A stretch of 64,000 nt of DNA, taken from the NCBI GenBank assembly GCA_016190985.1, contig JACPPI010000007.1:124001-188000 (forward strand), given 5' to 3'. This document shows, piece by piece, positions 10,550 to 53,449 of the stretch. This stretch comes from Opitutia bacterium (GTDB lineage Bacteria; Verrucomicrobiota; Verrucomicrobiia; Opitutales; Opitutaceae). The notes below the pieces were generated by a model that made no database searches, had not been told where the DNA came from, and saw nothing but the letters and a program-made list of their open reading frames with translations. The translations under genes were made by a program, and so were the position numbers. Every line of letters begins with the position of its first letter. The first letter of the stretch is position 1.

Positions 10550-10673
10550 GGCATTTGATCAAGACCGCTCTTGTCCCGCATTTGTGGGAGCGACCTTGGT
10601 CGCGACAGTCGCGTGCAAGCACGCTCCCACAACCAAACCAAGCCGAAGCAAGCCTCGTATCGGTATTGGACCC
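10550..10673 (-). repeat. REP-like intergenic repeat, copy 2
   Basis: Inverted copy of the element at 7025-7145; core palindrome 10584-10630 with ends GTGGGAGCG and CGCTCCCAC. In both copies the repeat lies directly downstream of a terminator, read on the strand of the preceding gene. Together with the terminator at 10689-10722 it fills most of the 310-bp gap 10438-10747; the rest shows nothing recognisable except the RarD promoter region. Confidence 0.85.
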
Positions 10674-14329: not shown

Positions 14330-15268
14330 ATGACAGGCACAGCGCATGCCGCTTTCCGGCGTTTGTTCAATGAAATCGGTTCGGTGGACTATGTGGGCAT
14401 CGAGGAGCGCGTCGCCAAATACACCACCCGCAGCATCAAGAAGGGGTCCAAGGTGTTCGGCCTGAAACTGGCCGTGTCGATGGTCGATCTCACCACGCTC
14501 GAGGGCAAGGACACGCCCGGCAAGGTCGAGTCGCTCTGCCAGAAAGCCCAGAGCCCGCATGACGACCCTGACATCCCCACCGTGGCGGCGGTGTGCGTTT
14601 ATCCGTCCATGGTGAAACACGCCCGCCGGGCGCTGGGCGAGGATACGGGCGTCCGCATCGCGTCGGTCGCCACCGCGTTTCCCTCCGGCCAGGCCCCGCT
14701 GCGCACCCGCCTGGCCGAGGTGAAGTCCGCCGTGGCCGACGGGGCCGACGAGATCGACATGGTCATCAATCGCGGCGCGTTTCTCGCCGGCGAGTTCCAG
14801 CTGGTGCAGGATGAGATCGCAGCGGTGCGGCAGGCCTGCGGGCCGGCCACGCTGAAGGTCATCCTGGAGGTCAGCGAACTGGAGACCTACGACAACATCC
14901 GCGCCGCGTCCTTCATCGCCATGCGCGTGCTGCGGCCCAACGATTTCATCAAGACCAGCACCGGCAAGACCACGCTCAACGCCACCCTGGGCAACAACCA
15001 GGTGATGCTCGAGGCCATCCGCGATTTCTACCTCGACACCGGCACGCCCGTCGCGATGAAGCCGGCCGGCGGCATCCGCACCGCGAAGCAGGCGCTGCAA
15101 TTCCTCATCGCCGTCAAGGAGACCCTCGGCGACGAGTGGCTCAACAATACCCGCTACCGCTTCGGCGCCTCCTCGCTCCTCAACGACCTGCTCCGCCAGA
15201 TCGAGAAGGAGAAGACCGGCGCCTATCAGGCCCCGTATTATTTCAGCGAGGCCGCCGAATCCTACTGA
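14330..15268 (+). CDS. deoC: Deoxyribose-phosphate aldolase
   Basis: A 312-residue DeoC enzyme splitting 2-deoxyribose 5-phosphate into acetaldehyde and glyceraldehyde 3-phosphate. Recognisable segments: 'AAVCVYPSMV', 'KLKVILEVSELE'-like strand, 'NDFIKTSTGK' (Schiff-base Lys in KTSTGK, near residue 210) and 'MKPAGGIRTAKQAL' (second Lys). About 60 residues longer at the N-terminus than E. coli DeoC, as in the long class of DeoC proteins. ATG at 14330 is preferred over an upstream TTG. Downstream aldehyde dehydrogenases could oxidise the acetaldehyde made here. Confidence 0.93.
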   Translation: MTGTAHAAFRRLFNEIGSVDYVGIEERVAKYTTRSIKKGSKVFGLKLAVSMVDLTTLEGKDTPGKVESLCQKAQSPHDDPDIPTVAAVCVYPSMVKHARRALGEDTGVRIASVATAFPSGQAPLRTRLAEVKSAVADGADEIDMVINRGAFLAGEFQLVQDEIAAVRQACGPATLKVILEVSELETYDNIRAASFIAMRVLRPNDFIKTSTGKTTLNATLGNNQVMLEAIRDFYLDTGTPVAMKPAGGIRTAKQALQFLIAVKETLGDEWLNNTRYRFGASSLLNDLLRQIEKEKTGAYQAPYYFSEAAESY

Positions 15269-15273
15269 GTTTT

Positions 15274-15306
15274 TTTAACCACGAATGGACACGAATAGAC
15301 ACGAAT
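15274..15306 (+). repeat. Left inverted repeat of the GxxExxY cassette
   Basis: 33 bp built from a repeating ACGAAT(A/G)GAC-type unit (period 10). It contains the ATG of the GxxExxY gene at 15285, so the repeat encodes the first seven residues (MDTNRHE). Confidence 0.85.
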
Positions 15307-15680
15307 CAGAAGAGAGCGTCCTGCATCGTGACTTGGTATTCCGAATCGTGGGCTGTGCCTTTGATGTGGTCAAAGAGATCGGTCATGGGCTGCACGAGAA
15401 ACCCTATGAGAATGCCTTGGTGCTGGCCTTCCAGGATACCGGAATCTCGGTTCAGCAACAGGTCGCATTCCCCATTCTTTTCAAGGCACGCCAGGTTGGG
15501 GAGTATATTCCCGATATGATTGCCGATAACGCGGTGATCATTGATGCCAAGGTGATTGATCGCATCACCGACCACGAACGTGGGCAGGTGCTGAATTATC
15601 TGCGCATCACCGGACTGCGAGTCGGCCTGATCATCAATTTCAAGCGTGCGAAACTGGAATGGGAAAGGATAGTGCTCTGA
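15285..15680 (+). CDS. GxxExxY family protein, predicted PD-(D/E)xK nuclease
   Basis: A 131-residue protein carrying the name-giving motif GLHEKPY (residues 35-41). Further conserved residues fit a PD-(D/E)xK nuclease core: E38, D77 in YIPD, D87-A-K89 in VIIDAK, and Q101-x-x-x-Y105 (QVLNY), the latter like motif IV of RecB/Cas4-type nucleases. Function of the family is not established. The start codon lies in the left inverted repeat. Coding composition is clearly less GC-rich than its neighbours, a sign of transfer. It breaks up what is otherwise a deoC-aldehyde dehydrogenase run. Confidence 0.9.
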   Translation: MDTNRHESEESVLHRDLVFRIVGCAFDVVKEIGHGLHEKPYENALVLAFQDTGISVQQQVAFPILFKARQVGEYIPDMIADNAVIIDAKVIDRITDHERGQVLNYLRITGLRVGLIINFKRAKLEWERIVL

Positions 15681-15684
15681 TCCC

Positions 15685-15717
15685 ATTCGTGTGAATTCGT
15701 GTCCATTCGTGGTTAAA
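15685..15717 (-). repeat. Right inverted repeat of the GxxExxY cassette
   Basis: Inverse of the left repeat with two mismatches over 33 bp. It ends 12 bp before the ATG of the aldehyde dehydrogenase gene. Confidence 0.85.
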
Positions 15718-15729
15718 CCCTCTTCCCCC

Positions 15730-17244
15730 ATGTCCATGCTCACCGCGAAAAAACCCACCCGCCCGGCCGCGCGCGCCGCCGGCCGCCCGTTGCCCGAGCT
15801 CATCTTCGGCGATCTCTGGGAATACGATCCGGCGCCCGAGACGGCCGATCCGAAGCTGAAGGCCCGCTACGACCTGTTTATCGGCGGCAGGTTCACCGCG
15901 CCCGCCTCCGGCAAATATTTCGACTCCATCAACCCGGCCAACGAGACGAAGCTCGCTGAGATCGCGCACGCCAACGCCGCCGACGTGGACGCCGCCTACC
16001 AGGCCGCGAAGAAAGCCCACGACAACGTCTGGGGCAGGATGCCCGGCCGCGAGCGCGCCAAATACATCTACCGCATCGCCCGCCTGCTGCAGGACCGGGC
16101 GCGCGAGTTCGCCGTCGCCGAGACGATGGACGGCGGCAAGCCGATCAAGGAGTCGCGCGATTTCGACGTGCCGATGTGCGCGGCGCATTTCTTCTACCAC
16201 GCCGGCTGGGCCGACAAGCTCGACTACGTGGCGCCCGGCCGCCGGGTCGCGCCGCTTGGCGTCGTGGGCCAGGTCATCCCGTGGAACTTCCCGCTGCTCA
16301 TGCTCGCGTGGAAGCTCGCGCCCGCCCTCGCCATGGGCAACACCATCGTCATCAAGCCGGCCGAGACGACCAGCATCACCGCGCTGAAGCTCGCCGAGAT
16401 CTTCCAGGACGCCGGCCTGCCGGCGGGCGTCGTCAACATCGTCACCGGCTTCGGCGACACCGGCGCGGCGGTCATGGGCCACCCGATCGCGGCGAAGGTG
16501 GCGTTCACCGGCTCGACGGAGGTGGGCAAGATCATCATGCGCTCGCTCGCCGGCACCGACAAGAAGATGACCATGGAGCTGGGCGGCAAGGCGGCCAACA
16601 TCGTGTTCGACGACGCGCCGATCGACCAGGCCGTCGAAGGCATCGTCAACGGCATCTTTTTCAACCAGGGCCATGTGTGCTGCGCCGGCTCGCGCCTGCT
16701 CGTGCAGGAGACTGTGGCCGCCGAGGTGCTGGCCAAGCTCAAGAACCGCATCCGCGTCCTCCGCATCGGCGACCCGCTCGACAAGAACACCGACATCGGC
16801 GCCATCAACTCGAAGGAACAGCTGGGCACGATCGAGCGCCTCGTCGCCATCGGCGTGAAGGACGGCGCGACGATGTTCCAGCCGCCGTGCAAGCTGCCGA
16901 GCAAGGGTTACTATTTCCGCCCGACGATCTTCTCGGGCGTCTCCATGAGCCACCGCATCGCCCGCGAGGAGATCTTCGGGCCCGTGCTCAGCGTGCTCAC
17001 CTTCCGCACCGTTGACGAGGCGGTCGAGAAGGCCAACAACACCGCCTACGGCCTCAGCGCCGGCGTGTGGACCGACAAGGGCACGCGCATCCTGAAGATG
17101 TCCACCGAGCTCAAGGCCGGCGTCGTCTGGGCCAACACCTACAACAAGTTCGACCCCACGTCGCCCTTCGGCGGCTACAAGGAGTCCGGCTTCGGCCGCG
17201 AGGGCGGCCGGCAGGGCCTGCTCGACTACTGCAAATTAATATGA
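15730..17244 (+). CDS. NAD-dependent aldehyde dehydrogenase (catalytically complete)
   Basis: A 504-residue ALDH-superfamily enzyme oxidising an aldehyde to a carboxylate. The cofactor-binding 'VIPWNFPLLMLAWKLAPALAMGN' region is near residues 180-202, the catalytic Glu lies in MELGGKAAN (near 283) and the catalytic Cys in 'GHVCCAGSRL' (near 317-318). ATG at 15730 follows the right GxxExxY repeat; in-frame codons upstream belong to that repeat. Its place after deoC suggests it oxidises acetaldehyde or a related product of deoxynucleoside breakdown. It is followed by a polypurine/polypyrimidine inverted repeat. Confidence 0.92.
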   Translation: MSMLTAKKPTRPAARAAGRPLPELIFGDLWEYDPAPETADPKLKARYDLFIGGRFTAPASGKYFDSINPANETKLAEIAHANAADVDAAYQAAKKAHDNVWGRMPGRERAKYIYRIARLLQDRAREFAVAETMDGGKPIKESRDFDVPMCAAHFFYHAGWADKLDYVAPGRRVAPLGVVGQVIPWNFPLLMLAWKLAPALAMGNTIVIKPAETTSITALKLAEIFQDAGLPAGVVNIVTGFGDTGAAVMGHPIAAKVAFTGSTEVGKIIMRSLAGTDKKMTMELGGKAANIVFDDAPIDQAVEGIVNGIFFNQGHVCCAGSRLLVQETVAAEVLAKLKNRIRVLRIGDPLDKNTDIGAINSKEQLGTIERLVAIGVKDGATMFQPPCKLPSKGYYFRPTIFSGVSMSHRIAREEIFGPVLSVLTFRTVDEAVEKANNTAYGLSAGVWTDKGTRILKMSTELKAGVVWANTYNKFDPTSPFGGYKESGFGREGGRQGLLDYCKLI

Positions 17245-20018: not shown

Positions 20019-20076
20019 CAAGCGGTCACCGGTCGCTGACGGCGTCAGCTTTGGGCCGCAGCCGCCCCGGGAGCTT

Positions 20077-20144
20077 ATGTAAACTATTAGTTGACATCAG
20101 CCAAAGCCGTTGCCGACCGGCCGATGTCAACTAATAGTATACAT
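20077..20144. repeat. Long palindrome between convergent genes
   Basis: Arms 20077-20098 and 20123-20144 pair over 22 bp with one mismatch; the arm core is actattagttgacatc. It lies between convergent genes (stops at 20018 and 20205). The same TTGACATC core forms a palindrome at 38234-38260, also between convergent genes. A bidirectional transcription end is likely, although there is no T tract. Confidence 0.8.
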
Positions 20145-20204
20145 TGGCATCGGAGGAGGCGGAGATATTTAGGCGGCGCGGGAGGGGGCGGGCACTGAAA
20201 GGAA

Positions 20205-53389: not shown

Positions 53390-53449
53390 GTGGGAGCGAG
53401 CTTGCTCGCGACGTTTTGGCGTGCGGGTCGCGAGCACGCTCGCTCCCAC
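53390..53449. repeat. REP-like palindrome, copy 3
   Basis: Arms of 23 bp (53390-53412 and 53427-53449), ends GTGGGAGCGAGC and GCTCGCTCCCAC, with a 14-base loop. It occupies the only sizeable gap (101 bp) within the 50809-58310 cluster. Same family as the core of 7025-7145 and 10550-10673. Confidence 0.88.

Follow-up and report, generated by a model that had tools for sequence, protein, structure and literature searches.

A GxxExxY gene with a PD-(D/E)xK nuclease fold lies between inverted unit arrays, and gene-less hairpins share the same units

In the 64,000-nt stretch of Opitutia DNA that we analyzed (the window), we found that a GxxExxY gene lies between deoC (stop codon at 15268) and an aldehyde dehydrogenase gene (ALDH; likely ATG at 15730), enclosed by two inverted arms (Table 1). 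The 33-bp parts of the arms are identical at 31/33 positions and an inverted-repeat search extends the arms to 44 nt (86%). Each arm consists of three tandem 10-bp units, which on the left are in the order CACGAAT-GGA-CACGAAT-AG-A-CACGAAT, and both left-right mismatches are found in a single spacer. The left arm contains an ATG at 15285 and the first 22 nt (7 codons) of the gene, the stop codon (15678-15680) is 4 bp ahead of the right 33-bp arm, and GC content is ~0.52 across the gene as compared to ~0.62-0.70 in the flanking DNA. The inverted ends, the placement of the start and stop codons, the lower GC content and the separation of deoC from ALDH had all been described in a first-pass annotation, and we confirmed them in the sequence. 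All 4 matches to the core CACGAATNNACACGAAT in the window (at most 2 mismatches) are at the cassette; shuffled sequences have a mean of 0.02 matches and 0/100 shuffles reach 4. Because an alternative start (TTG at 15333) also keeps the whole domain (the TIGR04256 match begins at residue 17), the start codon within the left arm is likely rather than proven.

Table 1. Positions of the cassette and of two gene-less hairpins in the window.
Feature	Position	Strand	Evidence
Left arm	15274..15317 (33-bp part 15274-15306)	.	inverted-repeat search and pattern matches
CACGAAT units, left arm	15280-15286, 15290-15296, 15300-15306		pattern matches
GxxExxY gene, 131 codons and stop, PD-(D/E)xK-fold protein	15285..15680	+	TIGR04256, PF13366, structure model
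Right arm, inverted, three ATTCGTG units	15674..15717 (33-bp part 15685-15717)	.	inverted-repeat search and pattern matches
Gene-less hairpin, arms like those of S23 gene L041 of the same genome	17251..17345	.	inverted repeat; arm match 24.0 (at most 6.0 with the other five S23 genes)
Gene-less hairpin, arms like those of S23 gene L040 of the same genome	26561..26662	.	inverted repeat; arm match 17.5 (at most 8.0 with the other five S23 genes)

The window protein matches TIGR04256 (GxxExxY) with 122.9 bits (cut-off 35, E 8.1e-36) and PF13366 (PDDEXK_3) with 115.4 bits (cut-off 22, E 2.5e-33), and a Pfam search up to E 1 found no Y1_Tnp domain in it. A PD-(D/E)xK fold was already known for this family, as the Pfam name shows. 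Our structure model, built from a 21-sequence alignment, has a pLDDT of 93.1 and a pTM of 0.84. When we searched with the model in Foldseek, lambda exonuclease was the top match (E 7e-4, probability 1.00), followed by LHK-Exo and SSO0001, with two matches at E ≤0.001. A second structural aligner matched SSO0001 at Z 9.2 (99 residues, rmsd 3.6) and other nucleases at Z ≤7.5, a range where chance resemblance is possible. The order E, D, D/E-x-K, QxxxY is the motif of lambda exonuclease/Cas4/RecB-type nucleases, and the window protein carries it as E38, D77, D87, K89, Q101 and Y105. E38, D77, D or E at 87 and K89 are jointly present in 93/94 proteins of the genus (those complete at these columns), Q101 is present in 87/95 and Y105 in 91/95. 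The model thus gives good reason to assign the window protein to the lambda-exonuclease/Cas4/RecB-like PD-(D/E)xK fold, as the first-pass annotation had proposed from the same six residues; nuclease activity is predicted. The protein differs from lambda exonuclease, Cas4 and RecB in that it is a single ~120-residue domain and is encoded between repeat arrays. Because it has a single cysteine, a Cas4-type iron-sulfur cluster is unlikely.

Seven GxxExxY genes, each flanked by inverted repeats, lie at seven separate places in the source genome (2.95 Mb); at L002 the best arms are ~75 bp away from the domain and there are hairpins on either side. The seven genes have four unit types: CACGAAT (the window gene and L002), CACGGAT (L004 and L007), CACAGAG/CGCGGAG (L001 and L003) and GGAACTCAGG (L006). 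Across the genus, 20/21 genomes have a GxxExxY gene, with 116 matches altogether, of which we examined 95 and omitted 21 that are mostly fragments, contig-edge or weak matches. Flanking arms at a score of at least 12 are present at 89/95 genes as compared to 1/95 for the best of eight shuffles, which leaves 6/95 genes below the threshold; at a threshold of 11, the counts are 91 and 10 of 95. Control flanks have arms at 2/20 deoC loci and at 2/29 other window genes. Among 36 loci taken from genome contigs, 4 are incomplete and were left out, and 24 of the remaining 32 have arms. These 32 include 13 distant loci (L188 to L201), of which 9 have arms; in 2/13 a shuffle also reached 12. By record titles, the 9 armed distant loci are from Fodinibius, Cyclobacteriaceae, Sphingobacteriales, Spirochaetes, Nostoc, Daejeonella, Kapaibacterium, Rhodospirillales and one uncultured bacterium. 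Searches of viral contigs (two queries) and of phage records found no GxxExxY relatives, and 8 of 72,556 plasmid records have one. The first-pass annotation had suggested that the repeat serves for translation start, which is likely for the window gene and is not general: among the 89 armed elements, 16 have an in-frame ATG within the left arm, 62 have it between the arm and the core and 3 have none, and in the remaining 8 the arm is >60 bp upstream.

GxxExxY arms are composed of about three tandem 9-10-bp units that read inward. For 126/160 arms, a period of 9 or 10 fits best, and at least two inward CRCNNR units at 9-11-bp spacing are present in 71/89 left arms and 70/89 right arms, as compared to 3 left and 3 right arms on the opposite strand (2.6 expected). 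Arm similarity follows protein identity (Mantel r 0.52, 0/999 permutations), also among pairs with <60% protein identity (Mantel r 0.19, 0/999 permutations). For the 52/89 elements that are ungapped and have a clear period, we found left-right mismatches at 39/858 repeat columns as compared to 132/736 other columns. Pairing alone would constrain the spacers like the units; since the mismatches avoid the units, the units themselves seem to be read as sites and not merely paired. Mismatches that would form G-U wobble pairs on the sense strand are not preferred (35 vs 74). Mismatches in the genus arms are also skewed, with A on the left and G on the right in 52 and the converse in 27, perhaps in relation to start-codon accessibility.

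We compared 24 orthologous deoC-ALDH junctions. The gene is present in 3 (L050, L052, L057), gene-less hairpins with C(A/G)CGAAT units are present in 2 (L056, L066), a CACAGAG-type half arm is present in 1 (L064), and 8 are tight empty junctions (L051, L055, L058, L060, L063, L070, L072, L076) of the kind that the first-pass annotation had proposed to look for. The empty sites are in sister species. In the remaining 10, the spacer is unassigned or holds a palindrome of another kind. The palindromic repeat GTCATCCTGAGCG...GAATGACA, which differs from the cassette, occupies this junction in L053, L059, L061 and L062; as several kinds of palindrome occur there, the gap collects multiple repeat families. 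In two relatives, a same-clade gene lies ~1.6-1.7 kb 3' of deoC (L119 of G011 and L142 of G013), a distance that equals the length of ALDH, so that this gene probably sits at the junction after ALDH. A comparison of deoC-ALDH and L300 junctions with and without an insert, where the intergenic flanks are too diverged, gave no convincing target-site duplications.

Arms with the same units are also found without the gene. We examined exact CACGAAT arms at 30 loci: 19 are in paired gene-less hairpins (17 distinct, 65-162 bp), 7 are in gene cassettes and 4 have no partner. In G013, a complete genome, 15/20 sampled CACTAAT sites are palindromes of 60-136 bp with unrelated loops. The first-pass annotation had listed repeats without the gene, the gene without repeats, a lack of empty sites and an unlike fold as observations that would speak against a mobile cassette: the gene is rarely without repeats (6/95), there are empty sites and the fold agrees, and repeats without the gene are common, which, where the unit type matches, we read as gene-less derivatives. 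Some palindromes are nested (L237, L260, L298): two CACGAAT hairpins have a GTAG-like palindrome in the loop, and in this group CACGGAT units are found within the loop of a CACTAAT hairpin.

To relate gene-less arms to resident genes, we counted arm matches by unit type in each genome; these counts are of arms, not of elements. With their own arms removed, five same-clade carriers have 6, 1, 1, 7 and 11 exact CACGAAT arm matches, as compared to 2, 1, 1, 1 and then twelve zeros in non-carriers. For CACTAAT, six carriers have 4, 13, 35, 2, 7 and 7 matches with their own arms removed and fifteen other genomes have 0-7. The carrier excess of gene-less matches for the CACGAAT and CACTAAT types has one-sided p values of 7e-4 and 1e-3 with kinship ignored. 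There are exceptions in both directions: G017 has 7 CACTAAT matches and no cognate gene was seen there, and G004 and G010, which have the cognate gene, have 1 gene-less match each. In 12 genomes outside the genus, CACAGAT-type arms number 40 and 20 in two carriers of that type, 13 and 4 in two others and zero in eight; the 13 and 4 are in the genomes of L200 and L199, where the gene that we examined is without such arms. A Bacteroidota/cyanobacterial type, GTCTGAATCACGGATT, has 0-2 matches in each of the 12 genomes and so has not spread in gene-less form. Overall, hairpins that carry the units without the gene are dispersed and are commonest where a gene of the matching type is present.

Among the 89 armed genes, 0/228 within-genome pairs are >70% identical (drafts may hide identical copies) and 104/3688 between-genome pairs are. 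For the L001 type, gatA-side sequence is found upstream in 18 genome-contig loci and the downstream neighbor is found as well in 17; we assigned the names gatA and gatB from the flanking protein sequence. CACAGAG units are present on both sides in 18/20 L001-like elements and in 17/18 with both gatA-gatB flanks. Across the 17 gatA-gatB loci, dN is ~0.11, dS is near saturation and the median dN/dS is 0.08, a value taken from the 7/136 pairs with dS of 0.05-1.5. The window gene has a dN/dS of 0.036-0.086 against two same-site orthologues. At two junctions, then, the GxxExxY gene is common to several species and is under strong purifying selection. That many species share the gatA-gatB element may reflect either inheritance or repeated insertion at one junction.

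A second gene family has a parallel design. The source genome has six S23/TIGR02436 genes, and two hairpins in the window have arms like those of two of them (Table 1). From 112 S23 matches we examined 34 loci of the genus (L222, a weak and partial match, was omitted) and found inverted arms at 26/34 as compared to 3/34 for shuffles. The arm period is 7 or 14 in 17/19 arms and 8 in 2, which rules out the 9-10-bp S23 units that we had first assumed. As with GxxExxY, the arms follow protein clade (Mantel r 0.54, 0/999). S23 proteins are four-helix bundles and the two families are unrelated in sequence.

Taken together, these data show a small PD-(D/E)xK-fold protein that is encoded between clade-specific inverted unit arrays. 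The reading that we lean towards, by analogy with REPIN-RAYT systems (REPtrons), is that the cassette belongs to a family of palindromic elements, of which it is the member with the gene, and that the nuclease would act on this family in trans. According to passages of a study of REPINs and RAYTs (PMC8049555), inverted arms flank a spacer that is short and diverse, copies without the gene are numerous, the gene itself is single-copy and inherited, and genomes that have it contain more copies; all four features so described are seen with GxxExxY. We found paired inverted arms with diverse spacers and no gene; the gene appears to be single-copy and vertically inherited, judging from the 0/228 close pairs and the sharing at gatA-gatB; and gene-less copies are more numerous with the gene for two unit types (kinship ignored) and not for a third, distant type. 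The systems differ in that RAYTs are HUH/Y1 tyrosine transposases, GxxExxY arms are 9-10-bp unit arrays specific to the protein clade, and inspection of the window arms found no GTAG tag. Passages of PMC3733652 describe TIRtrons, in which a TIRYT gene also lies between inverted repeats and repeat families are found elsewhere in some species; in contrast to GxxExxY, the TIRYT is a tyrosine transposase, and neither unit arrays nor GxxExxY is described in those passages.

In such a system, several GxxExxY subunits would bind the unit array on both inverted arms, with a spacing of about one helical turn, and the nuclease would nick or cut at the element ends or at an extruded hairpin. Host replication or repair might then copy or move the short palindromes, mostly in gene-less form and in trans. 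The nuclease would thus act on its own arms, and the cassette seems to have given rise to many gene-less hairpin copies that are scattered in related bacteria. The resident nuclease would sustain the hairpins as a RAYT keeps REPINs, with a RecB/Cas4-like nuclease in place of an HUH transposase, and arms at the gene would be retained as the protein reads them, perhaps for self-regulation too.

It is less probable, in our judgment, that an outside enzyme (a RAYT or TIRYT, another transposase, or replication slippage with repair) moves the palindromes and that GxxExxY and S23 genes are cargo. We still weigh this explanation because unrelated S23 genes share the overall design at 26/34 loci, so that both families may depend on one external machinery, and because arms are found in some genomes with no cognate gene in view; the source genome also has 7 Y1_Tnp (RAYT-family) matches, one of them below the cut-off. 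Against a passenger role, unit sequence tracks both the GxxExxY clade and the S23 clade, the period is specific to the family (9-10 vs 7 bp), and the catalytic residues of the nuclease are retained.

A quite unlikely explanation is that the arms are local operators or RNA hairpins, which regulate their own gene or are processed by RNase III in the manner of 23S rRNA intervening sequences (IVS), and that the gene-less hairpins are regulatory relics. In its favor, 17/18 gatA-gatB loci have retained the arms on either side of the element, and the Coxiella IVS, according to passages of PMC4990558, contains an S23 ORF, has termini that form a 28-bp stem and is cleaved by RNase III. Small ORFs with inverted termini are common to the IVS and to GxxExxY elements, and S23 genes in the genus have similar arms; however, GxxExxY elements lie between protein genes, as the cassette does between deoC and ALDH, and have an arm period of 9-10 rather than 7 bp. 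The empty alleles at the deoC-ALDH junction and the tens of gene-less copies, which are dispersed and differ in their loops, also argue against this explanation, and an RNA hairpin as the main constraint is disfavored by the position of arm mismatches in spacers, not units, and by the G-U asymmetry. Homing, in which the nuclease would cut the empty deoC-ALDH junction and repair would copy the cassette, fits the nuclease fold and the empty sites and is nonetheless very improbable, since the intergenic insertion junctions differ and the element carries the conserved sites within it instead of splitting them, gene-less hairpins of the same kind occur at the deoC-ALDH junction, the seven genes of the genome are at seven different places, and many species share one element type at the gatA-gatB junction; of the minimal mobile or homing-type cassette put forward in the first-pass annotation, the inverted-end cassette and its empty sites stand and the homing does not.

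If the cassette supplies a nuclease that serves the whole element family in trans, this would explain part of the intergenic hairpin repeats in the genus and probably in other phyla. The partnership of gene-less hairpins with a resident gene would work as in REPIN-RAYT systems, with a different enzyme and no GTAG tag, and such partnerships of genes and miniature repeats would have arisen with more than one enzyme class. Tentatively, GxxExxY genes across several phyla could be inherited nucleases that each sustain a private palindrome population in clade-specific 9-10-bp arrays, and S23 genes could do likewise with units of 7 bp. In that case at least three such partnerships, REPIN-RAYT among them, would have evolved independently, and a lone PD-(D/E)xK nuclease would mobilize DNA. 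Many genomes have annotated GxxExxY and S23 genes, both with no known role, and the arms are a candidate substrate for both families. The clade-specific units would be a natural recognition code, whose specificity may be readable from sequence alone. In the literature search (many journals are outside its coverage), the portions of text available mention GxxExxY incidentally and do not tie it to repeats; PF13366, TIGR04256 and IPR026350 appear as listing entries, PDDEXK_3 was not found, and no title among the matches listed links GxxExxY proteins to repeats.

Other palindromes are present in the same DNA and in related species. In the intergenic region of L300, the hairpin family differs by species (L303-L322) and includes S23-like unit arrays, AAACCTGAAACTTGAAACC. 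The window also has an inverted repeat at 20061-20160 (42 nt, gap 16 nt, 79% complementary) in which we recognized no type. At 53390-53449 and 10582-10632 there are palindromes GTGGGAGCGAGCTTGCTCGCGAC and a variant of it, and the palindrome at 53390-53449 matches repeats that flank the Y1_Tnp (RAYT-family) gene L046 in the same genome, an ordinary REP-like pair.
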